From Caryophanales bacterium (lineage in GTDB: Bacteria; Bacillota_I; Bacilli_A; Izemoplasmatales; UBA1188), in assembly GCA_016287865.1 (NCBI GenBank), contig JAEEXP010000005.1:1-54362 (forward strand): DNA of 54,362 nt. The letters run 5' to 3'. A program made the position numbers and the translations under genes. Positions 7,238 through 36,826 of the stretch are shown in pieces. The first letter of the stretch is position 1. Every line of letters begins with the position of its first letter. Below the pieces are notes generated by a model. It did not search any database and was not told the DNA's origin. It was given only the letters and a program-made list of their open reading frames with translations.

Positions 7238-7418
7238 CTTTAGTCTCTCTTATAACGATAGGGCATGTGTTTTTAAAGTCACATGCCTTACATTCTTCAT
7301 CGTTATAACTTTCTGGTTTTTTAGTTTTAAAGTTGATTATAGATACAACTAAAAAGATAGTGACTACTGATACTACAATAACTATGCTCCATACATTTAA
7401 AGCTAAAATTAAATTCAC
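7218..7418 (-). CDS. Small single-pass membrane protein with CxxC...C tail
   Basis: A 66-residue protein starting at GTG 7418. The start codon shares its first base with the TAG stop of the upstream phosphoglucomutase, and GGAG is 10 nt upstream. Residues ~8-28 form one transmembrane segment, followed by a basic stretch (FKTKK) and a tail with C-K-A-C-D-F-K-N-T-C. The layout recalls the short Cys-rich membrane proteins found beside FeoB, but no feoB is nearby. The three Cys could bind metal or form a disulfide. Function unknown. Confidence 0.7.
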   Translation of the reverse strand: MNLILALNVWSIVIVVSVVTIFLVVSIINFKTKKPESYNDEECKACDFKNTCPIVIRETKDEENSK

Positions 7419-9121
7419 TATTTATATTCTCCAATCTTCACATCAATTACTTCAAATATTTCAGTAATGATTCTATCAGCTTCTTCCATATTCTTAGCTT
7501 TTGATTCAATATATACTTTTAGTTTTGGTTCAGTTCCAGATGGTCTTAATACAATCCATCCAACACCATTTAAGTAATATTTAATAACGTTACTCTTAGG
7601 TAGACTTAAACCACTCTTAACTTTAGTTGAGTATTGAAGTCTTGTTTGGTTCTCATAGTCTTCTTTAACGAGTACTCTATATCCTTTAAAGTCATTGATG
7701 TCTTCTCTTCTATAATAGTCCATAATCTTAGCCATAGTCTTAGGACCTTCAATGCCTTCAAAGAAATAGCTCTTAGTTCTATTTAGATAGTAACCATATT
7801 TTTCATAAACTTCATTTAATACTTCGATTAAGTTTCTGTTTTCTTTTACTAAATAATAGTTAGCCATTTCAGCGATAGCTAGAAGTGATTGAATAGAATC
7901 CTTATCTCTTACATAATCTTTAATGATATAACCATATGATTCTTCATATCCAAAGATAAATTCTTCTTTTGTACCTTCAAGGAGTTTAGCTTGTTCACCA
8001 ATAAACTTAAATCCAGTTAAAGTAGATGTTACTTTAAAGCCAAACGATCTTGCGATATCAGAACCAAGTGATGATGTAACAATAGTATCAAATACTCTTC
8101 CTTTCTTTGGAAGAATCTTCATCTTCTTTTCTTGAGATAATCTAAAGTAAAGAAGTAATGCACCAGTTTGGTTACCAGTTAAATATACATACTTTTTAGA
8201 ATCCCACACCGCAAGACCTACTCTATCTGCGTCTGGGTCAGTCGCAATTAAGATGTCAGCCTTAACTTTCTTACCTAATGCTTCAGCCATTTCAAAGGCT
8301 TTAGTTTCTTCTGGGTTTGGAGACTTAACTGTCTTAAATCCTGGGTCATGAACGAATTGTTCCTTAACGAATGATGCATCATAACCACATTCAGTTAAGA
8401 TTCTTTCAGCTGGTTCAGCGCCACATCCATGAAGTGGTGTATAAACAATCTTTACTTTCTTTTCAAGGTCTGGGAATAATTGAATTGATTTAGCTTTTTC
8501 AATAAACGCATTATCAATTTCATTATCAAGCATCTTAAATAAACCTAATGCTTTTAATTCTTCTATTTCTTTTGTTGGAATTGAGAATACATCTTCAACC
8601 GCATTTACTTCTTTTATTACTTCATCAGCATACACAGGAGTAAGTTGACATCCATCTTCATCATAAATCTTATAACCATTATATTTAGAAGGGTTATGAG
8701 ATGCGGTAATCATGATTCCGCCTACCGCATTTAAATATCTAACACTGAATGAAAGTTCAGGAGTAGATCTTAAATCTTCAAACATGAAGCACTTAATTCC
8801 AAGTGCACCAAGCACTTTCGCAGATTCAAAGGCGAAGTTTCTTGAGTTTTCTCTATTATCATGTGAGATTACTACACCTCTATAAACTTCACTCTTATAG
8901 CGTTTAAGTAAATATTTTCCATAACCGTAATTAGCTTTTCTCATAGTATAAATATTAAATCTATTAGGACCAAGTCCCATGATTCCTCTCATACCACCAG
9001 TACCAAAGCTTAAATTACCACTGAATGCTTCTTCAAGTTCAGTCTTATTAATAAGACTTAATTGTTTCTTTAGCTCTTTATTCTTTTGAGCTTCTTTTTC
9101 CCATCTTTCAAGTTCAGTCAT
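7418..9121 (-). CDS. pgcA: Phosphoglucomutase / phosphomannomutase (alpha-D-phosphohexomutase)
   Basis: A 567-residue cytoplasmic enzyme interconverting glucose-1-P and glucose-6-P. Motifs in order: TGGMRG near residue 41, phosphoserine loop TASHNPSKYNGYKIY near 137, Mg-binding DPDADR near 297, sugar loop GYEESYGY near 395, and phosphate-binding RPSGTEPKLK near the C-terminus. The length matches the Bacillus PgcA type. It follows the tail-anchored unknown gene with a 10-nt gap and an AGGAG site. It links GlgP and GlgC, encoded about 3-10 kb away, to glycolysis. Confidence 0.93.
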   Translation of the reverse strand: MTELERWEKEAQKNKELKKQLSLINKTELEEAFSGNLSFGTGGMRGIMGLGPNRFNIYTMRKANYGYGKYLLKRYKSEVYRGVVISHDNRENSRNFAFESAKVLGALGIKCFMFEDLRSTPELSFSVRYLNAVGGIMITASHNPSKYNGYKIYDEDGCQLTPVYADEVIKEVNAVEDVFSIPTKEIEELKALGLFKMLDNEIDNAFIEKAKSIQLFPDLEKKVKIVYTPLHGCGAEPAERILTECGYDASFVKEQFVHDPGFKTVKSPNPEETKAFEMAEALGKKVKADILIATDPDADRVGLAVWDSKKYVYLTGNQTGALLLYFRLSQEKKMKILPKKGRVFDTIVTSSLGSDIARSFGFKVTSTLTGFKFIGEQAKLLEGTKEEFIFGYEESYGYIIKDYVRDKDSIQSLLAIAEMANYYLVKENRNLIEVLNEVYEKYGYYLNRTKSYFFEGIEGPKTMAKIMDYYRREDINDFKGYRVLVKEDYENQTRLQYSTKVKSGLSLPKSNVIKYYLNGVGWIVLRPSGTEPKLKVYIESKAKNMEEADRIITEIFEVIDVKIGEYK

Positions 9122-10788: not shown

Positions 10789-11496
10789 TTATATTCCTAT
10801 TCTCTTTAAAAGTACTGAAATTCTCTTATATACCAAAATGTCAACCGCGATATTCACAAAACCTACAATAGCGTTAAATGGTAGACATGCCGCAAATAGA
10901 TAATAAGACATAAAGTTTTCAGTAGTAATTCCTTTAATAGTCTTACTAACCATTCCTACAAATGCCTCAACATTTTCTTTAAAGAAGAATCTAATATAGA
11001 ATGGAAGGACAAACGCATAGTTAAGCACCACTGCGACTACCATCCATAATACAAATGAAATTAGTATTCCAATTAATCCACCTCTTCTAGTTCTATCAAA
11101 ATAATAGAATAATGAAGATGGTAGAACTACTGATAAAGATAATAATAAATCGAATAATTCACCTACATAGGCAGTTGACGAACCCAAAGTTATTAGTTTA
11201 AGTCCAAGCATCACAATTACACTTAATACTCCACCAATAGGTCCAGTTAATAATCCCGCAATTATTAAGAATAAGTTGTGAAACTTAACTTCTAAGAATG
11301 ATGGGAAGAATGGTAGAGGGAACTTCACAAATGAATAGAACACATAAGCTAGTGCACTAAACATCGCAACTCTAGTAATGAATCTGATTCTTCCTTTCTT
11401 AGTTTTAAACTGTTGTTTAATTAAGTTTTCTTTCTTTTCTTCATTTTTAGTTGATTCATCTTCAACTACATTTTCAAGTACTGCATCTTCGTTCAT
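10789..11496 (-). CDS. ribU: ECF transporter S component RibU (riboflavin)
   Basis: A 235-residue membrane protein: a charged cytoplasmic N-terminus of ~45 residues, then about six hydrophobic segments. The block FPLPFFPSFLEVKFHNL, then LLTGPIGGVLS...GSSTAYVGELFDLL, is characteristic of RibU, which captures riboflavin for an ECF energising module. The FMN riboswitch in its leader independently supports the substrate. A TTGGAGTG site precedes the ATG, right after the U-tract of the attenuator. The charged N-terminal extension is longer than usual. Confidence 0.93.
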   Translation of the reverse strand: MNEDAVLENVVEDESTKNEEKKENLIKQQFKTKKGRIRFITRVAMFSALAYVFYSFVKFPLPFFPSFLEVKFHNLFLIIAGLLTGPIGGVLSVIVMLGLKLITLGSSTAYVGELFDLLLSLSVVLPSSLFYYFDRTRRGGLIGILISFVLWMVVAVVLNYAFVLPFYIRFFFKENVEAFVGMVSKTIKGITTENFMSYYLFAACLPFNAIVGFVNIAVDILVYKRISVLLKRIGI

Positions 11497-11543: not shown

Positions 11544-11551
11544 CGAAAACA

Positions 11552-11654
11552 ACTTCTTTCATCCAGACTTTACTGTTGGCTTAGGACTTGAACCTAATCA
11601 GCTTAACGCTCGCGGGCTTTACCGCCAGTAGAGAATTTCACTCATCCCTGAAGT
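11552..11654 (-). ncRNA. FMN riboswitch (RFN element)
   Basis: The minus strand reads AGGGATGAGTGAAATTCTC, then CTGGCGGTAAAGCCCGCGAG and ends AGTCTGGATGAAAGAAG, the conserved core of the RFN aptamer. P1 is ACTTC (11654-11650) with GAAGT (11556-11552). It lies 56 nt upstream of ribU and should shut ribU off when FMN is plentiful. Confidence 0.97.
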
Positions 11655-11662
11655 ACAAAATA

Positions 11663-12350: not shown

Positions 12351-14750
12351 TTATTTAATCTTATCTAAATGCCAGATAAGTCTATTGTAGTCTTCAATAG
12401 ATCTATCACTTGAGAATACATTTGATCTTGCGATATTAATTAAAGACATACGAGCCCACTTATATTCATCTTTATAAGCTTCATTAGCTTTTTCTTGAGC
12501 CTTTCTATAGCTATCAAAATCTCCAAGAACCATATATGGGTCTTCAAAGAGGAGCTTATTATAGATTTCTCTAAATTCTTCTTGTGGAACATTATCAAAG
12601 AAACCATTTACTAAAGAATCTAAAGCGAATCTAATATTAGGATCCTTTTCATAGTATTCTCTTGGATTATATACAGGTTTTAGATTAATAACTTCATCTT
12701 TAGTGAAACCAAAGATAAACATATTGTCACTCTTAACTTCATCAAAGATTTCAACGTTAGCACCATCAAGAGTACCAATAGTAACAGCTCCATTCATCAT
12801 AGCTTTCATATTACCAGTACCAGATGCTTCATAACCAGCAAGAGAGATTTGTTCTGAAATGTCAATTGCTGGGTTAATGATTTCAGCAGTTGATACACCA
12901 TAGTTTTCAATAAATACAACTTTTAAGTATTTAGAGATTTCTTCATCATGGTCAATCTTATATGCGATAGTATTAATTAATTTAATTACTTTCTTTGCAA
13001 AGTGATAACCTGATGCAGCCTTTGCACCAAAGATATATGCATGTGGTACAAAGTTCTTTCTAAATTCTTCATCAGTCTTGAGTCTATTGTATACATAGAT
13101 AATGTGAAGAGCGTTTAAGAGTTGTCTTTTATATTCATGAAGTCTCTTGATTTGAACATCGAAGATAAAGTTAGAGTCTACTTCATGAACTTGAATCTTA
13201 TCATTTGCGTTAATGTATTTTGCGAGAATATCTTTTCTTGTCTTCTTAATTCTAATTAATGAATTTAGAACATCTTCATCATCAACGTGTTTTTCAAGAT
13301 CTCTAATCTTATTGAAATCTTTTCTCCAAGTTGGAGTGATTTCATCAAGTAAACTAGATAGTTCAGTGTTTGAATACATTAACCAACGTCTTGGAGTAAT
13401 ACCATTAGTTACATTAGTAAATTTATCTGGGAAGAGTTCATTGAACTCACTCATAACGTTATACTTTAAAAGGTCAGAGTGAAGCTTCGCAACACCATTA
13501 ACTTTGAATCCTACTGTACTACAAAGATTGGCCATATATAGCGTATTTCCTTTGATAATAGCTACTTGATCAACAAAGTCTTTTTGGTATCCTTTTTCAT
13601 ATAATGAATCAACAAATCTTCTATTGATTTCATCAATGATTTCCATGATTCTTGGAAGGATTCCTCTAACTAGATAGATAGGCCATGTCTCCATAACTTC
13701 TTTTAAAAGTGAGTGGTTAGTGTAGCAGACTGCATTAGTTGTAATTCTATAAGCTTCTGCCCATTCCATGTTTTCTTCATCAAGTAAGATTCTCATTAAC
13801 TCTGGGATAACTAGAGTTGGGTGAGTATCATTTAAATGAAGTACTACGTGTTTATCTAAGTCTTTTAAAGTTCCATACTTTTCTTTTTCAGTATTACAAA
13901 TAGTTCTTACACCTGATGCGCTTAAGAAATATTGTTGGATTAGACGGAGTCTCTTACCATCTTCACTTGAATCATCTGGATATAAGAATCCGCAAATCTT
14001 TCTGATATCTTCTTCATAAGCAATCGCAGATTTGTTGTATGGATATTTTCTAGCTGGTTCTGCGTTCCAGATTCTGAGTGTATCAATAACCTTATTGTTG
14101 TATCCAACTACTGGAACATCATATGGAACGGCTTTAATGTATTCAGCTGGATGATATACTCTTTTACCGTTAAGATAATCAACATAACCATATAGTGGGA
14201 TTTCAAGAGATAATTCTTCTCTTCTAATTTCCCATACAAATCCATCTTCAAGCCAGTTGTCAGGACGTTCTTCTTGATAACCATTTTTAATCTTTTGTCT
14301 GAATAGACCATATCTATATCTAATAGTGTTACCCATTGCTGGATATTTAAGGCTTGCGAGTGAATCAAAGAAACATGCCGCAAGTCTACCTAAACCACCA
14401 TTACCTAGACCTGGATCTTTTTCATAACTTAATACTTCAGATAGTTTAATACCATAACTCTTGAATGCTTCTTCTACTATGTCTCTTAAACCTAATGAAT
14501 TAATATTAGATTCAATCATACGGCCAAGTAGGAATTCCATAGAGAAATAGTAAACCATTCTAGGGTTTTCTTTTTCTATTTTATTGTTTGTGTCAATCCA
14601 ATAGTCTGATAGATAATCCATAACCATTGAACCAAGCACATTATATCTTTCTCTTACGCTTGATTTTTTAACGCTTACTAAGTATTTATTTTTAAGTCTT
14701 AAAGCGAATTCTTCTTTGAAATCTTCTTTTGTCTTAAAAAATGTATTCAT
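12351..14750 (-). CDS. glgP: Glycogen phosphorylase
   Basis: A 799-residue GT35 enzyme that releases glucose-1-P from glycogen with phosphate, using pyridoxal phosphate. The N-terminal block YFSMEFLLGR and LGNGGLGRLAACF and the PLP site EASGTGNMKAMMNGA (Lys near 645) are intact. The length fits bacterial GlgP. GAGGAG precedes the ATG. It follows the glgD::glgA fusion with a 1-nt gap, so synthesis and breakdown enzymes are made from one message. Confidence 0.97.
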   Translation of the reverse strand: MNTFFKTKEDFKEEFALRLKNKYLVSVKKSSVRERYNVLGSMVMDYLSDYWIDTNNKIEKENPRMVYYFSMEFLLGRMIESNINSLGLRDIVEEAFKSYGIKLSEVLSYEKDPGLGNGGLGRLAACFFDSLASLKYPAMGNTIRYRYGLFRQKIKNGYQEERPDNWLEDGFVWEIRREELSLEIPLYGYVDYLNGKRVYHPAEYIKAVPYDVPVVGYNNKVIDTLRIWNAEPARKYPYNKSAIAYEEDIRKICGFLYPDDSSEDGKRLRLIQQYFLSASGVRTICNTEKEKYGTLKDLDKHVVLHLNDTHPTLVIPELMRILLDEENMEWAEAYRITTNAVCYTNHSLLKEVMETWPIYLVRGILPRIMEIIDEINRRFVDSLYEKGYQKDFVDQVAIIKGNTLYMANLCSTVGFKVNGVAKLHSDLLKYNVMSEFNELFPDKFTNVTNGITPRRWLMYSNTELSSLLDEITPTWRKDFNKIRDLEKHVDDEDVLNSLIRIKKTRKDILAKYINANDKIQVHEVDSNFIFDVQIKRLHEYKRQLLNALHIIYVYNRLKTDEEFRKNFVPHAYIFGAKAASGYHFAKKVIKLINTIAYKIDHDEEISKYLKVVFIENYGVSTAEIINPAIDISEQISLAGYEASGTGNMKAMMNGAVTIGTLDGANVEIFDEVKSDNMFIFGFTKDEVINLKPVYNPREYYEKDPNIRFALDSLVNGFFDNVPQEEFREIYNKLLFEDPYMVLGDFDSYRKAQEKANEAYKDEYKWARMSLINIARSNVFSSDRSIEDYNRLIWHLDKIK

Positions 14751-14751
14751 A

Positions 14752-17184
14752 TTAACTCCTCTCTTTCTCTTTCACTAACTTGTATAAGGCAAGATATTCC
14801 TTGGCACATTTTTCAAATGAATTCTTTGATTCCATTGCTTGTTTAATCAAAGCCTTCCACCCTTTTTTATCATTGAAATATGTGTCCTTCGCAAGATTAA
14901 CTGTATAAATTAAATCTCTTGAATCATAATTATAGAATTTGAATCCATTACCTTTCTTATTCATGAACTCAAAGTTTCTAATCGTATCATTTAAACCACC
15001 AGTCTGTCTAACTACTGGGATAGTACCATATTTTAAGGCAATCATTTGCGATGTGCCACATGGTTCTATTCTTGATGGCATTAGGAATATATCCGCGCCT
15101 GCGTATATATATTCCGCTTTTGTTCCATAATAGTCAAGGAAACATTTTATTCTAGATGGATATTTAGCTTCAACTTCTCTAAATCTTCTCATTATTTCAG
15201 GATCACCTACACCAAGTAGAACGATTCTTACTCTTTCATCTTCCATAATGGAATCAATACTATCTAGAATTAAATCAAATCCTTTGATTTGGTCAAGTCT
15301 TGAAACCATACCTATTACGAATTCATCACCATTATTACTAAAACCGCAAAGGTTTAGTAAGAATTCTTTATTGATAGGTTTGTTCTTATAAACTGTCTTG
15401 ATGTTATAATTGGCTTTAATTTCAATATCAGTTTCTGGATTAAACTTTTCATCAAGACCATTTACTATACCATAGATATCTCTTTGACGTCTCATAATAC
15501 TATCGTGGAGATTTCCGGAATAGTATTCATATTTTAATTCTTCTGCGTATGTCTTAGAGACAGTCGTTAAGATGTCCGCACTATTAATACCTACTTCAAG
15601 TAAATTAACCTTACTGCCTTGAACGATATAATCAAAATTAAACTTATCAATAACGTCTCTTGAAGTTTCGCCTTGATAGTTAAGGTTATGAATAGTAAGT
15701 AATGTTTTAGAATCAGCGTATTCTTCGTATTTCTTCTTAAAAAGAGTAAATAAAGTAGTATGCCAGTCATTTAAATGGAAGACATCAACTACGATATCAT
15801 TCTCTTTTAAATATTCAAGAGTCGCATAAGAATAATATGCGAATCTTTCTGGATCATCTTCATATCCATAGATTTGTTCTCTATCGAAATACATATATAA
15901 ATCTAGGAAAACAAATTCCACATTATGAAGTATTTGTTTATATGTGGAAATATGATATTCCTTAGAATCAATTTCAAGTTTAATTTCTGAATCCTTTTCA
16001 AAGTTTTGGAAGTATTTATCCTTAATCTCTTTATATAAAGGTAGGAATACTCTAACCTTTGCGCCAAGCTTAGCTAAACTAATTGCAAGAGATCCAACCA
16101 TATCCGCAAGTCCACCTCTTTTAATGAATGGTGAACATTCCGCACTAAGTATACAAACACTAGGCATATAAAGTGATTTAATGATTTGGCTCTTCTCAGT
16201 TAAAAGTGGTTCATCAGGTTTTCCTTTTAAATGTAGGCCTTCTTCAATAATACACTCTTTATCAATAATCGCATTTTCAACTATGCTTCCTTTCTTGATA
16301 ATTGCGTTATTCATGATTATTGAGTTGATTACTTTAGCTCCTTCTTCTATTACTACTCTTCTAAATAAGATTGAGTTTTCAACTGAACCATAAATCATAT
16401 CTCCAGTCGCAATAGATGAACATTTAACTTCACTTCTAGGCCCAAAATAACTTGGAGGGTTAATTGGGTCTTTAGTTCTAAATTGGAACTCTTCTTCCTC
16501 TAAGTGGTCTTGAAGTCTTTTCTTTAAGATATACATTGAAACGTTATAGTATCCTTTAACGGTTCTTATGTATTTAGAAAATCCATTATGAATATATGTC
16601 GCAGTCTTAATATTTAAAGATCTGTCATATAACTCAACGATATTTCTTAAAGATGATGAACGATATAAAGAGATAAACTCCATTAACTTTTCTTTCTTTA
16701 AAATGAAAGTATAAAGTCTTTCGCCTTCAGAGTTAATGACTTGAGTAATATCCGCACCTGATTCTATATGATAATTAAGTAAATCGTTAAAGTTAATTCT
16801 CCAAATTAAAGTCGCAGGACTAATAATCGCATAGTCTTGAAGAGACCTTCTAAAGAATTCCATTTGTTCACTTAAACGTTCAAATGATATGAATTCTTCA
16901 TCCACTGGACTAGTTACTTTTGGAGGAAGAATAAAGATACCATCAAGTCTTCTTTTAAGGTTATATCTATCGCCTGACCCTATATGGTCATATAGAGATC
17001 TATAGTTACCACCAGGGAATACTCCAACACTCGTAATATCGCTAAATGTAGCGTTAGTAAGGTTTCCATCAATAATACGATACTTACTAAAGAATGGGAT
17101 GGCTCCTGGAGCTCTATGTTTACTCATTAAGCTGAAGAATAGTTTTGAAGATGCATCAATTATGAGGACCATTTCTTTATTCAT
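14752..17184 (-). CDS. GlgD-GlgA fusion: ADP-glucose pyrophosphorylase-like subunit plus glycogen synthase
   Basis: One uninterrupted 810-residue frame. Residues 1 to ~330 are GlgD-like: IPFFSKYRIIDGNLTN, SVGVFPGGNYRSLYDHIGSG and a left-handed beta-helix tail of hexapeptides (SIIMNNAIIKKGSIVENAII). The GGxGxRL nucleotide loop of catalytic GlgC is replaced (IIDASSKLFFSLM), as in the regulatory GlgD subunit. Residues ~340-810 are a GT5 glycogen synthase: ILSAECSPFIKRGGLADMVGSL with the ADP-glucose Lys, HLNDWHT, TIHNLNYQG, VSRLDQIKGFDL and the acidic motif RIEPCGTSQMIALKYG. Elsewhere these are usually separate neighbouring genes. GAGGGGG marks the start, which overlaps glgC by 8 nt. Confidence 0.93.
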   Translation of the reverse strand: MNKEMVLIIDASSKLFFSLMSKHRAPGAIPFFSKYRIIDGNLTNATFSDITSVGVFPGGNYRSLYDHIGSGDRYNLKRRLDGIFILPPKVTSPVDEEFISFERLSEQMEFFRRSLQDYAIISPATLIWRINFNDLLNYHIESGADITQVINSEGERLYTFILKKEKLMEFISLYRSSSLRNIVELYDRSLNIKTATYIHNGFSKYIRTVKGYYNVSMYILKKRLQDHLEEEEFQFRTKDPINPPSYFGPRSEVKCSSIATGDMIYGSVENSILFRRVVIEEGAKVINSIIMNNAIIKKGSIVENAIIDKECIIEEGLHLKGKPDEPLLTEKSQIIKSLYMPSVCILSAECSPFIKRGGLADMVGSLAISLAKLGAKVRVFLPLYKEIKDKYFQNFEKDSEIKLEIDSKEYHISTYKQILHNVEFVFLDLYMYFDREQIYGYEDDPERFAYYSYATLEYLKENDIVVDVFHLNDWHTTLFTLFKKKYEEYADSKTLLTIHNLNYQGETSRDVIDKFNFDYIVQGSKVNLLEVGINSADILTTVSKTYAEELKYEYYSGNLHDSIMRRQRDIYGIVNGLDEKFNPETDIEIKANYNIKTVYKNKPINKEFLLNLCGFSNNGDEFVIGMVSRLDQIKGFDLILDSIDSIMEDERVRIVLLGVGDPEIMRRFREVEAKYPSRIKCFLDYYGTKAEYIYAGADIFLMPSRIEPCGTSQMIALKYGTIPVVRQTGGLNDTIRNFEFMNKKGNGFKFYNYDSRDLIYTVNLAKDTYFNDKKGWKALIKQAMESKNSFEKCAKEYLALYKLVKEKERS

Positions 17185-18301
17185 TTGACTCTACCCCCTC
17201 ATAACTCACATCAACTAAAGTTGGTTCATCAAACTTAAGTATGGTGTTATCTTTAACAATCACTCTTTCATTGACGATTGCGTTTTTAAGTTTTACATTC
17301 TTACCAATTTTAGTGTATGGAAGAATAATTGAACTTTGAATATTTGCGTTCTCTTCTATTACATCACAATATGAAATAATAGAATGTTTTACCTTTCCAT
17401 ATACCTTAGCGCCTTCTGCGACATATGATGATTTAAGTGATGCGTTATCTCCAATATAAAGTGGAGTATGATATAAAGGTTTTGAATAAATCTTTTGTTG
17501 ATCTAGGTGTGGTGATATCTCTTCTGGATGATCAAGATAATACATGTTCGCATCATAGTATCCTGTAGGAGTTCCAACATCAAAGAACTTACCTTCATAT
17601 GTATAGGCATAAATATCATCTTCATTCTTTAAGATATATGGAATTAAGTCTTTTCCAAAATCAATATATTTATCAGCTTGTTCGATATATTTGATTAGGA
17701 AGTCTTTATTAAATAAATAGATACCCATAGAGATTTTATTTGATTTAGGATTAGCTGGTTTTTCTTCAAATGAAACAATCTTATTATTTTCATCTGTCTC
17801 AATTATTCCAAATCTAGATAGTTCTTCTTTTTTAGGATAATCATTCGCAAGAATAGTTAACTTCGCATTATTCTTAATGTGTTCATCAAGTACTTCTTTG
17901 AAGTTTAATTTATAGATATGATCGCCTGAAAGAATCAAGAAATATTTAGATCTAGATTTCTTAATAAAATCAATTTGAGTAAGACAGGCATGAGCTGTGC
18001 CTTTCTGCACTACTAGTTTTTGGTCTTCGTTCACATAAGGAGTTAAGAAAGAGATACCTTTACCAAAAGTATCAAGATCAAATGCTCCACCATTTCCGAT
18101 GTATTTAATTAAATCATATGGTTCATATTGGGTTAAGATTCCAATATCTGTGATGTGAGAGTTAGAAAGAGATGATAAAACAAAGTCAATAATTCTATAC
18201 TTGCCTAAAAAACTAACATAAGGTTTAGTTTTGTTTTCTGTTAAAGTTTCAAGTCTCTTTCCTCTTCCGCCGACTAATATTAGCGCAGTTACGTTATCCA
18301 T
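17177..18301 (-). CDS. glgC: Glucose-1-phosphate adenylyltransferase
   Basis: A 374-residue enzyme making ADP-glucose from ATP and glucose-1-P, the committed step of bacterial glycogen synthesis. The catalytic N-terminal loop LVGGRGKRLETLTENKTKP is intact, followed by YRIIDFVLSS, GTAHACL, LSGDHIY and FEEKP. The C-terminus has the beta-helix repeats expected for the allosteric domain. AAGGA lies 7 nt before the ATG. It follows glgB after 3 nt and overlaps the fused glgD::glgA, its likely partner in a heterotetramer. Confidence 0.96.
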   Translation of the reverse strand: MDNVTALILVGGRGKRLETLTENKTKPYVSFLGKYRIIDFVLSSLSNSHITDIGILTQYEPYDLIKYIGNGGAFDLDTFGKGISFLTPYVNEDQKLVVQKGTAHACLTQIDFIKKSRSKYFLILSGDHIYKLNFKEVLDEHIKNNAKLTILANDYPKKEELSRFGIIETDENNKIVSFEEKPANPKSNKISMGIYLFNKDFLIKYIEQADKYIDFGKDLIPYILKNEDDIYAYTYEGKFFDVGTPTGYYDANMYYLDHPEEISPHLDQQKIYSKPLYHTPLYIGDNASLKSSYVAEGAKVYGKVKHSIISYCDVIEENANIQSSIILPYTKIGKNVKLKNAIVNERVIVKDNTILKFDEPTLVDVSYEGVESNE

Positions 18302-18304
18302 TTA

Positions 18305-20164
18305 TTATTCCTTTTTAAGTCTAAATACTGTGATAGAGAGTGGACTTAATACGAATTCAATTGATTGACTAAATCCGTGTGACCATTCATCTTTAGATTT
18401 TATTGGAAGACCATTATATAAATTTGATCCACCATAAACATCTTTATCACTATTAATAATTTCTTCGTATGTTCCCTTCTCTGGTACACCAAGTTTATAA
18501 GACATATAAGAGTTTGGTGTTAAGTTTAAGATACATACATCAATTTGGTCTTTATACTTTCTATAGTATGAGAATACTGATTGATCTGAGTTAGATGCAT
18601 CAATCCATCTAAAGCCTTCAGGGTCATCATCATTCTTATATAAAGCTTCGTCATTTAGATAAACTAAAGACATATCTCTAACAAATCTCTTAGCTTCTCT
18701 ATGCTTATCATATTGAAGGAGGAACCAGTCAAGTTCACTATTATCCTTCCATTCATGGAATTGAGCAAATTCACCACCCATAAAGAGTAACTTCTTTCCA
18801 GGATGAGTATACATAAAGCCGATTAAAGCTCTAAAGTTAGAGAATTTCTGCCAGTAGTCACCAGGCATCTTATCAATTAAAGATTTCTTACCGTGAACAA
18901 CTTCATCATGAGATAAAGGAAGAATAAAGTGTTCACTATAAGCGTATACTAAACTGAATGTAAGATAGTTTTGGTGATACTTTCTATAGATTGGATCTTT
19001 TTCAAAATACTTTAAAGTATCATTCATCCAACCCATATTCCATTTGTAGTCAAATCCAACTCCACCTGCCCAAGGTGATTTAGTTACGTTAGGGAAGGTA
19101 GTTGAATCTTCCGCAGATAAAATAAGATTATTATCTACTCCTTTTACTGTTAAGTGGAGTTCTTTTAAGAATTCCACACCAGCTTCATTAATACCATTAG
19201 CTTGGTTTCCAAGATAATAGTAAATATTAGATACTGCATCAAGTCTAAATCCATCTACGTGGAAATAGTTGATGAAGAACATTGCATTAGATAGGAAGAA
19301 TGATCTTGTGGTACCTTTGCTGAAGTCCATATTCGCAGTACCCCATTCTTTATTCTCTCTTCTAAATTCATCATCAAATTCATAAAGATGTGAACCATCG
19401 AATTCATAAAGACCATGAGGGTCTTTACAGATATGCCCTGGAACCCAGTCTAGGATAACTTTAATATTATTCTTATGGAGTTCATCAATTAAATACATTA
19501 AATCTTTTGGTACACCATAACGTGATGTCACACTATAATAACCTGTACCTTGATATCCCCAAGATTCATCAAGAGGGAATTCAATTAGAGGCATAAACTC
19601 AACTGTGTTAAATCCCATTTCTTTTAAATACGGAATTAAAAGAGGTGGAAGTTCATTAAACTTATTGAATGAACCATCAGGTTTCTTCATCCAAGAACCA
19701 ATATTCATTTCATAAATATTGATTGGTTCATGGAGGTGGTCAGAATTCTTTCTTCTTTCAAGATATTCTTTATCATGCCAGTAATATCCATCAATGTCAT
19801 AAACCTTACTGCATGTTTCAGGTCTATTATCACTAAAGAATCCATATGGATCCGACTTAAATAAAGTTCTGTTGTCTTGTGTAACTATAACATAACGATA
19901 TTTAGCCCATTCTCCAACACCTTCAATAAATAGTTCATATATTCCAGCATCATCGATTCTATTTAATACATGAACTCTTGAATCCCAGTTATTGAAGTCT
20001 CCAATAACTGAAACAATTCGTGCGAATGGTGCATATACTCTAAACATGGTACCAATTATTTCACCATTATCATTTTTAACTAGGTGTGCACCAAATAGAT
20101 TATATGCTTCAGTCAATTTTCCTTGATTGAATAGATATAAGTTAAATGAATCAAAGTTAGTCAT
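18305..20164 (-). CDS. glgB: 1,4-alpha-glucan branching enzyme
   Basis: A GH13 enzyme of about 619 residues that adds alpha-1,6 branches to glycogen. An N-terminal CBM48-like domain (FRVYAPFARIVSVIGDFNNWD) comes first. The barrel has DWVPGHICKD, DGFRLDAV with the nucleophile Asp, LSAEDS with the acid/base Glu, and LPLSHDEVVHGKKSL. The start is set at ATG 20164, 8 nt after GGAGG. ATG 20170 is only 2 nt from that site, and an in-frame TTG at 20179 overlaps it. The gene overlaps the end of recX by 8 nt. Confidence 0.95.
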   Translation of the reverse strand: MTNFDSFNLYLFNQGKLTEAYNLFGAHLVKNDNGEIIGTMFRVYAPFARIVSVIGDFNNWDSRVHVLNRIDDAGIYELFIEGVGEWAKYRYVIVTQDNRTLFKSDPYGFFSDNRPETCSKVYDIDGYYWHDKEYLERRKNSDHLHEPINIYEMNIGSWMKKPDGSFNKFNELPPLLIPYLKEMGFNTVEFMPLIEFPLDESWGYQGTGYYSVTSRYGVPKDLMYLIDELHKNNIKVILDWVPGHICKDPHGLYEFDGSHLYEFDDEFRRENKEWGTANMDFSKGTTRSFFLSNAMFFINYFHVDGFRLDAVSNIYYYLGNQANGINEAGVEFLKELHLTVKGVDNNLILSAEDSTTFPNVTKSPWAGGVGFDYKWNMGWMNDTLKYFEKDPIYRKYHQNYLTFSLVYAYSEHFILPLSHDEVVHGKKSLIDKMPGDYWQKFSNFRALIGFMYTHPGKKLLFMGGEFAQFHEWKDNSELDWFLLQYDKHREAKRFVRDMSLVYLNDEALYKNDDDPEGFRWIDASNSDQSVFSYYRKYKDQIDVCILNLTPNSYMSYKLGVPEKGTYEEIINSDKDVYGGSNLYNGLPIKSKDEWSHGFSQSIEFVLSPLSITVFRLKKE

Positions 20165-20915
20165 AGTCATCACCTCCAACTATCTTTTCAACTGAGTTAA
20201 ATCCGTATCCTTTTCTTAGTAGGAACATTTTTATTTTTTGTTTATCATTATATTTAGCTTTCGCTTTTTTATAATCTTCTTCTAAATTACTACTTGAAGA
20301 ATTCTTTGGGATTAATGAAATATTTAAGTATTTATTTATTTCATCTTCTGTGTATCCTTTAGATAATAAATACTTTTTAGTTTTTAAAACCAATTTATTA
20401 AATGGTGTTTTATTATCTTTAGATGCATACTTCTTGGTTAATAAGGTGATATTTTCTTTTAATGCTTCAGTGTCATATTCAAATGAATTATTAAGTCCAA
20501 GCTTAACTAGGTCATTTGAAATTTTTATTCTACCATCACGTTTTTCGTATATGGCATATTCTAAATATGCCTTTTTATATGATGAATCATTAATTAGATT
20601 CTCTTTCTTTAAGATTTCTACTACATCATTAATCATTGATTCATCATTTGTGATCTCACGCAAATGATCTTTAACTTCTTTTGAAGTTCTAAGCTTTTTA
20701 TCTGCAAACTTCTCACCTTCATAGATTAATGAATCAAGTGGAAGTTTAGATAAAAATAATTTATAATCTTCTTCTTTTATTTCTTTTGGAGATAAAAACT
20801 TCATTTCAATTAAGAGTTCTTCTCTAATCTTGTATGTTGTTTTAAAGTTTTCATCATTAATTACGATTTCATATCTCCTGTTTTTCTTTTTGATGGAGTC
20901 TAGGAAGTATCTCAT
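20157..20915 (-). CDS. recX: Regulatory protein RecX
   Basis: A 252-residue RecX-type protein that modulates RecA filaments. Its three-helix repeats show the family pattern in the middle (RTSKEVKDHLRE...DVVEILKKENLINDSSYKKAYLEYAI) and at the C-terminus (KIKMFLLRKGYGFNSVEKIV). RecX is usually shorter (~150-270 residues), so the length is at the upper end. Its ATG overlaps the prfB stop (TAATG). No recA is in the window. Confidence 0.85.
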   Translation of the reverse strand: MRYFLDSIKKKNRRYEIVINDENFKTTYKIREELLIEMKFLSPKEIKEEDYKLFLSKLPLDSLIYEGEKFADKKLRTSKEVKDHLREITNDESMINDVVEILKKENLINDSSYKKAYLEYAIYEKRDGRIKISNDLVKLGLNNSFEYDTEALKENITLLTKKYASKDNKTPFNKLVLKTKKYLLSKGYTEDEINKYLNISLIPKNSSSSNLEEDYKKAKAKYNDKQKIKMFLLRKGYGFNSVEKIVGGDDYD

Positions 20916-35098: not shown

Positions 35099-36826
35099 CT
35101 AATTATATGCTTCAACAGTGAATTTAAGATTATCTATAAATGCCCATGATTCTGGTGCTGTAAATACAACATAAATCACCAGTTTTAATTCTTCAAAAGA
35201 GTCTGAAGAATCAAAATTTGTTTCATTTGTCATCCATTTCATTGAGCCAATAATCATAAATGAAGTTTCACCAATTCGCTTTTCTTTTGAAAATACTTGT
35301 ATATATACATACCCATAACTTGATGCGCCACCCATAGTGCTCGCACGCAACGTATAATAACCAGCTGGAGCATTAGTAAATGTTTGAGTTAATTTAATAG
35401 ATGCAGCTTCACTGCTATATACATTTAAAGCTCTTTCACCATCATAATGTTCAGAGTTACTTATTTGAACTGTATCCATCGTTCCTTCTACTCTTTCTAA
35501 AGTCCAAGGACTTAAATCCCATGATTCTTCAAATGAACCATTAGATAATAGTGAAGTAGTTTTTGGTTTAGATATGCCTCTTGGTTGATTAAATACATCT
35601 ATTGAGTTTAACACATACCCATCTTTATCAAAAAATGCTTGGTTTTCTATTGCGCATCCTCCGTAGTAACGTCCAGCATCATTAGGGTCATATTCAGCTG
35701 AGTAACTTGATGCCCAACCAGAACCATATGTTTCCCATTTAATTTGGTTTTCTTCGAGCGAAGTATAGCCAACACCAATCCAAGTACCTTCCCAATAGCA
35801 GACGCCAAGTCCTTTATCTAATGAAGATATAGCTTTTATTACGTCATATACTTGGTCATATTGACCTTGAATTGTGTAATCATGAGGTTTAGTATAGCCA
35901 GTATCTAGTGATGTATTATTATGGAAATCATAATTATCTAATGAATTTGCATAACTTGTTTCCATTACCATTACATATTTGTCATATGTATTGCCAATTG
36001 TATTTAATACATTAGTTAAATTTGAAATAGTACCATGCCAATAAGGATAGTAAGATGTACCAAATACATCATAATCTAAATTATTGTCACTTAAGAGTTT
36101 TGCTAAACTTAACATGTTACTAGAATTTTGTGGATCAGTGAAATGTAGTGCAACAAGTGCATCAGGGAACACTTCTCTTACGGCTTTAGAACCCTCTTTC
36201 ATAAGAGCAATCATATTGTTTACATTCTCTCCAGCCATGCCAGTATTGGTTTCATTTCCAATTTGAACCATGCCCACATCTATGTCTTCATCTTTTAGTC
36301 TTACTAATGTTTCTTTTGTATAAGTATATAATGCAGTTTTCTTTTCATCTAATTTCATATTAGCCCAAGCTTTAGGAACTTTTTGTTTTCCTGGATCTGC
36401 CCAGAAATCTGAGTAATGAAAATCCACCAATAATTTCATCCCATATCTAGTAGCTCTTTTACCTATATTAATAAGATTATCTAAATCGCAGTTTCCGCCA
36501 CCATATCCATGACCTTCTGAGTCATATGGGTCATTCCAAAGTCTTACTCTAATATAATTGATGTGGCATCTACTTAATATATAGAAAACATCTTGTGTTA
36601 TACCTTGAAAATCTTTATACGTTACTCCACTAGCTTCAAGAGACGGAACTTGAGATGCATCCATGCCCATAATAAAATCACTAGACAAGTTTTCAATATC
36701 TGTTGTAGAAATAATCTTTCTTTCGGTTGTGGTTGTTTTACTTAAACTTGAAGCCGTAGGCAAAAGACTACAACTAGTTAGAAATAATATAGATAATAAT
36801 AAAATAAGTATTTTTCTAAGTTTCAT
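35099..36826 (-). CDS. GH53 endo-beta-1,4-galactanase lipoprotein with C-terminal carbohydrate-binding domain
   Basis: 575 residues. A lipoprotein signal ends in LTSC (Cys19), followed by a Ser/Thr linker. The GH53 domain spans ~50-415: MGMDASQVPSLE, YIRVRLWNDP, DFHYSDFWADPGKQ, acid/base E192 (QIGNETN) and nucleophile E289 (VMETSY). The C-terminal ~140 residues (NGSFEESWDLSPW...) resemble CBM61-type galactan-binding modules that accompany GH53 enzymes. It should cut galactan side chains of pectin at the cell surface. No galactoside transporter or regulator is adjacent. AAGAGG marks the start. Confidence 0.92.
   Translation of the reverse strand: MKLRKILILLLSILFLTSCSLLPTASSLSKTTTTERKIISTTDIENLSSDFIMGMDASQVPSLEASGVTYKDFQGITQDVFYILSRCHINYIRVRLWNDPYDSEGHGYGGGNCDLDNLINIGKRATRYGMKLLVDFHYSDFWADPGKQKVPKAWANMKLDEKKTALYTYTKETLVRLKDEDIDVGMVQIGNETNTGMAGENVNNMIALMKEGSKAVREVFPDALVALHFTDPQNSSNMLSLAKLLSDNNLDYDVFGTSYYPYWHGTISNLTNVLNTIGNTYDKYVMVMETSYANSLDNYDFHNNTSLDTGYTKPHDYTIQGQYDQVYDVIKAISSLDKGLGVCYWEGTWIGVGYTSLEENQIKWETYGSGWASSYSAEYDPNDAGRYYGGCAIENQAFFDKDGYVLNSIDVFNQPRGISKPKTTSLLSNGSFEESWDLSPWTLERVEGTMDTVQISNSEHYDGERALNVYSSEAASIKLTQTFTNAPAGYYTLRASTMGGASSYGYVYIQVFSKEKRIGETSFMIIGSMKWMTNETNFDSSDSFEELKLVIYVVFTAPESWAFIDNLKFTVEAYN

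Follow-up and report, generated by a model that had tools for sequence, protein, structure and literature searches.

The question posed by this locus is whether the regulatory subunit of ADP-glucose pyrophosphorylase, GlgD, is truly joined in one protein to the glycogen synthase GlgA, and what such a join would mean for the synthesis of glycogen. The window, that is, the whole stretch of DNA that was analysed, is 54,362 nucleotides of contig JAEEXP010000005.1 of a Caryophanales bacterium (assembly GCA_016287865.1, order Izemoplasmatales). The original prediction was of a GlgD without the catalytic loop, joined in frame to a complete GlgA. A single open reading frame of 810 amino acids was indeed found, with an ATG start and no internal stops, and the family models for glgD and glgA matched the same chain, as they did in all 39 relatives scanned. 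The glgA model (TIGR02095) scored 455.3 bits over residues 343-802, above its cut-off of 328.45. The glgD model (TIGR02092) scored 221.5 bits against a curated cut-off of 236.6, with its best stretch ending at residue 334; it also matched all 39 relatives (best E-value 1.3e-94). An AlphaFold2 model of the fusion as a single chain without GlgC (mean pLDDT 89.4, pTM 0.60) is confident for the domains, and the placement of GlgD and GlgA relative to each other in it is uncertain. The features of the locus are listed in Table 1.

Table 1. Features of the glycogen locus, in window coordinates
Feature	Position	Strand	Basis
glgP, glycogen phosphorylase	12351..14750	-	TIGR02093; begins 1 nt past the fusion
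glgD::glgA fusion gene, 810 aa	14752..17184	-	single ORF; one chain matched by both the glgD and the glgA family model; 39/39 aligned relatives
GlgA part, residues 342-810	14755..16161	-	PF08323, TIGR02095; residue table; Foldseek
Junction, residues 326-341	16162..16209	-	alignment with abutting separate glgD/glgA; K309..E349 spacing; codons
GlgD part, residues 1-325	16210..17184	-	TIGR02092; Hexapep_GlmU PF24894 at 250-318; residue table; AlphaFold2
glgC, catalytic ADP-glucose pyrophosphorylase subunit	17177..18301	-	PRK05293/TIGR02091, both below curated cut-offs; catalytic residues intact
glgB, branching enzyme	18305..20179	-	TIGR01515; junction sequence

The GlgD part consists of a nucleotidyltransferase-like domain lacking the catalytic residues, followed by a left-handed beta-helix (about residues 243-322), a region in which strands were modelled at 252-320. 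The predicted absence of the catalytic loop was borne out throughout the lineage, as both the G-rich nucleotide loop (GGxGxRL) and the EKP segment with its lysine were missing from 62 of 62 fused GlgDs, and the catalytic Asp of SGDH was retained in just one of the 62. The fused GlgD fell on the GlgD side of a tree of GlgC and GlgD sequences, apart from GlgC, and Foldseek placed the GlgD part with ADP-glucose pyrophosphorylases. At about 342-346 residues, the fused GlgDs are short like those of the Bacillus type (341-344), and unlike the clostridial type of 370 residues. Judged from its sequence, this part is not vestigial, since its dN/dS, where unsaturated, is well under 1 and its relative rate of change is slow.

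The GlgA part is a GT5 glycogen synthase with all of the catalytic motifs (KxGGL, HxxDWH, SRxxxxKG and EPCG). Residues K355, D473, R629, K634 and E707 were kept in 62 of 62 sequences, and the His of DWH in 57 of 62. It has the GT-B fold of solved GlgA structures: Foldseek matched it to E. coli GlgA (3d1j and 2qzs, TMt 0.89-0.90; 0.90 with an rmsd of 2.3 for 3d1j) and also to the glycogen synthase of Agrobacterium tumefaciens. The fused GlgA is thus a complete and active-looking enzyme, for which ADP-glucose-dependent activity is predicted.

The join itself, expected near position 16160, was located at about 16162-16209. The spacing across it, from the invariant K309 to the invariant E349, was exactly 39 residues, free of indels, in 64 of 64 fusions checked. 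The window fusion could be aligned without gaps to the concatenated products of separate glgD and glgA genes from another family (loci L069 and L070), with no added linker.

A missed stop codon or frameshift at the junction has practically no chance of explaining the fusion. The genome that contains the window is fragmented, with 6.69% contamination, which is the ground for raising such an artefact at all; against it, the identical in-frame join recurs in dozens of unrelated assemblies, among them genomes complete in a single contig (G007, G013, G100, G111 and G122), and the relatives carrying it refute the artefact reading. In particular, a rumen metagenome record about 97% identical to the window (L044, JAILNJ010000159.1) reads the junction in frame. 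A match spanning the junction was found in 77 of 90 genomes of the order, of which 66 were full-length in a single frame and 11 were broken by contig ends. The open-frame figure of the genome match table reads through stops, and frames were instead checked directly on the fetched loci, where single fusion frames of about 800-845 residues were called. Named records with the fusion include Candidatus Izimaplasma HR2 (L046), Ca. Izemoplasma acidinucleici (L050), the rumen genome RUG448 (L045) and a yak-rumen genome (L058). Outside the order, the fusion was found in two more families, f10 (G129, G138 and G146) and f14 (g40 and g71). The best plasmid matches with annotated genes had glgD and glgA separate. 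Clostridia and true Bacilli are lightly sampled here, as the phylum-level search drew on genomes of the same class only. The fusion is genuine, ancient and conserved. The lineage bearing it appears to be one of small rumen and sediment bacteria, with the genus of the window probably a rumen lineage.

Several further observations concern the window and its relatives. A glycosyl hydrolase of family 53, resembling an endo-galactanase, is encoded at 35099-36826 (minus strand), which suggests the use of plant galactan and fits a rumen lineage. An FMN riboswitch (102.3 bits) at 11547-11659 (minus strand) precedes a gene for the substrate-binding component of an ECF transporter (10789-11496) and fits riboflavin uptake. 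A near-identical relative of the window (G003, L044 and L054) is filed as Gammaproteobacteria bacterium (RUI277), a title that looks wrong.

The fusion is located in a tight operon, glgB-glgC-[glgD::glgA]-glgP, all on the minus strand, and almost all loci that extend far enough to reveal the gene order share it. The 3' end of glgC lies inside the start of the fusion gene with an overlap of 8 nt, and relatives have the same order. The catalytic residues of the neighbouring GlgC were intact in 62 of 62 systems. For glgB, an ATG behind a GGAGGTG site is a likelier start than the listed TTG. A gene of the phosphoglucomutase family nearby (7418-9121) could in principle supply glucose-1-phosphate. 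Most relatives also have a second, unfused pair, GlgC2/GlgA2. A second unfused glycogen synthase is present in the window's genome (L076 7013-8464, contig G000:C69), where it groups with the order's GlgA2; a second glgC, which in relatives lies beside GlgA2, did not turn up in that assembly.

A single branch of the GlgA tree (UFB 100, SH-aLRT 99) separated every fused sequence from the rest; the fused GlgDs likewise formed one clade (SH-aLRT 95), as did their neighbouring GlgCs (97). As each of the three forms one clade, a single fusion event, with the operon inherited as a unit, seems the simplest reading. The starting point would have been a Bacillus-type glgBCDAP operon in which glgD and glgA abutted in frame; loss of the stop codon between them, probably once, would have joined the two, and the fused operon would then have been kept while passing through several lineages. 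How one lost stop can fuse the genes is illustrated by g84 of family f14, in which separate glgD and glgA abut in frame as TAA-ATG (L069 6843-6844, L070 7874-7875), with a single stop codon standing between them and a fusion of identical layout. These genes were rejected as the direct ancestor, as their GlgA and GlgC group with the Bacillus type, outside the fused clade. In the SecA tree, the carriers of the fusion were scattered and did not form one clade (one row, L143, in the wrong frame and with a huge branch, is to be disregarded). Vertical descent alone is therefore unsupported, and transfer or repeated loss is needed; the fusion may have been present early and then lost in places, or it may have moved from one lineage to another. 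An apparent GlgC2::GlgA2 fusion in G111 and G133, suggested by long open-frame values, was dismissed when direct calls gave separate genes. The GlgA frames L119-L124 (from genomes of family f15), L125 and L126 have N-terminal extensions of about 120-360 residues with weak Lysostaphin_N or histone-like matches; some of these may be extensions of the upstream frame. No enzymatic domain was recognised in the extensions, and the extended GlgAs of f15 carry neither a GlgD nor a GlgC domain.

The relative rates of the three proteins differed between fused and unfused systems. In 12 disjoint nearest pairs of unfused systems, the median ratios were 1.37 for GlgD/GlgA, 1.82 for GlgD/GlgC and 0.73 for GlgC/GlgA, with GlgC the slowest and GlgD usually the fastest. 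In 25 such pairs of fused systems, they were 0.89, 0.83 and 1.07, respectively, with GlgD the slowest or joint slowest and GlgC the fastest. These differences (Mann-Whitney p = 4.7e-5, 1.2e-6 and 1.5e-5, in the same order, with no overlap between the GlgD/GlgC ranges of disjoint pairs) come from simple distances, with all fused pairs from one clade and with a greedy choice of pairs made once an all-pairs comparison had already shown the effect. dN/dS was well under 1 in both parts of the fusion wherever it could be computed (unsaturated). The inverted constraint suggests that the regulator GlgD gained importance upon fusion.

The reading that we favour, with a probability of roughly 0.75, is that the fusion is the regulatory GlgD of a heteromeric GlgC/GlgD ADP-glucose pyrophosphorylase, extended at its C-terminus by glycogen synthase. 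The GlgC encoded just upstream, by the overlapping gene, would bind the GlgD domain and perform the pyrophosphorylase chemistry, probably as a GlgC2/(GlgD-GlgA)2 tetramer; the GlgA domain would then elongate glycogen with the ADP-glucose that this particle makes, and the operon's other products, GlgB and GlgP, would branch and degrade the polymer. We infer the binding of GlgC, the tetramer, the co-localised synthesis and any weight of the tether for flux or regulation. The pairing with GlgC that had been proposed is backed by the 8-nt overlap, by the co-segregation of GlgC and the fusion as a clade and by the heterotetramers known in Firmicutes; by analogy with those characterised enzymes (PMC9093745), the GlgD domain should bind GlgC, and the strong constraint on this domain makes it likely that it still does. 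Only if so would ADP-glucose production be tethered to its use. Channelling and shared allostery within the complex are hypotheses. We can suggest only tentatively a covalent pyrophosphorylase-synthase particle with GlgD as its structural and regulatory core, keeping GlgC and GlgA in a single complex where ADP-glucose is both produced and consumed, and passing one effector signal to both. By gene content, most relatives have two glycogen systems, the fused one and the unfused GlgC2/GlgA2 pair, and the genome here has a second GlgA; these cells should therefore not require a physical tether to make glycogen.

The rate shift might alternatively indicate that the GlgD domain gained a role beyond tethering, such as that of a scaffold, or of an allosteric sensor that acts on GlgA, its binding surfaces serving two enzymes. 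The inversion of the rate order (p about 1e-6 among disjoint pairs) and a GlgD-to-GlgA spacing that never varies are consistent with such a role. However, shared expression, lineage effects or a GlgC relaxed by the presence of GlgC2 are possible causes of the same shift, and the invariant stretch of the fused GlgD, residues 61-84, is recognisable also in ordinary Bacillus-type GlgD, leaving this a possible but rather doubtful explanation. Slightly less probable still, and in our judgement unlikely, is that a lost stop simply joined neighbours whose domains work as they do when separate, the tether having no selected effect. The glg genes lie side by side, in many cases abutting in the same frame, and the separate GlgC2/GlgA2 pair has not been displaced by the fused unit, as would suit a neutral event; yet 77 of the 90 genomes from the order, and two additional families, have kept the fusion with no clear secondary split, its join is of fixed length and the relative rates have changed. 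An internal start giving free GlgA besides the fusion is very improbable. Met340 of the window protein lies at about the position of the start codon of free GlgA, and L060 and L061 have KMRI and KMKI there, but few fusions keep such a Met, and no ribosome-binding site precedes it in the sequences read.

The reason why Firmicutes keep an inactive GlgD is only partly understood, and a conserved fusion offers a natural test of physical coupling between ADP-glucose synthesis and use, and could serve as a natural model for engineering glycogen synthesis by linked enzymes. The original prediction knew of no described GlgD::GlgA fusion, and a search of open-access papers turned up none, which falls short of proof that there is none; the abstracts of papers on Turicibacter and Izemoplasma glycogen held nothing relevant. 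The fusion is therefore novel in the sense of not found described, its sequences being already public.

Other fusions in alpha-glucan metabolism are GlgA-GlgB in Criblamydiaceae and Waddliaceae, whose branching domain is reported to be inactive in the chlamydial protein, GlgB-MalQ in Neisseria suica, and TreS-Mak/Pep2 (reviewed in PMC11046441). Like the window fusion, these place glycogen-pathway neighbours in one frame, but with other partners, and in none of them is a synthase linked to a subunit of the pyrophosphorylase. The Bacillus-type glgBCDAP operon, as on the Anoxybacillus plasmid pDSM15939_1 (L101), shares the five functions and the gene order of the fused operon; its GlgD is likewise short (341-344 residues) and without the EKP segment, and its glgD and glgA overlap or abut. 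It differs in that GlgD and GlgA are two proteins and GlgD changes much faster than GlgC (D/C 2.08, L101-L105). An operon of this type is also found on a plasmid labelled Pseudomonas fluorescens (L105, NZ_CP100662.1), possibly a mislabelled or contaminated record. The heterotetrameric GlgC/GlgD ADP-glucose pyrophosphorylases known in Firmicutes (Geobacillus stearothermophilus, Streptococcus mutans and Ruminococcus albus; PMC9093745) combine, like the window system, a catalytic GlgC with an inactive GlgD; in these the GlgD is a free protein, whereas the GlgD of the window carries GlgA.
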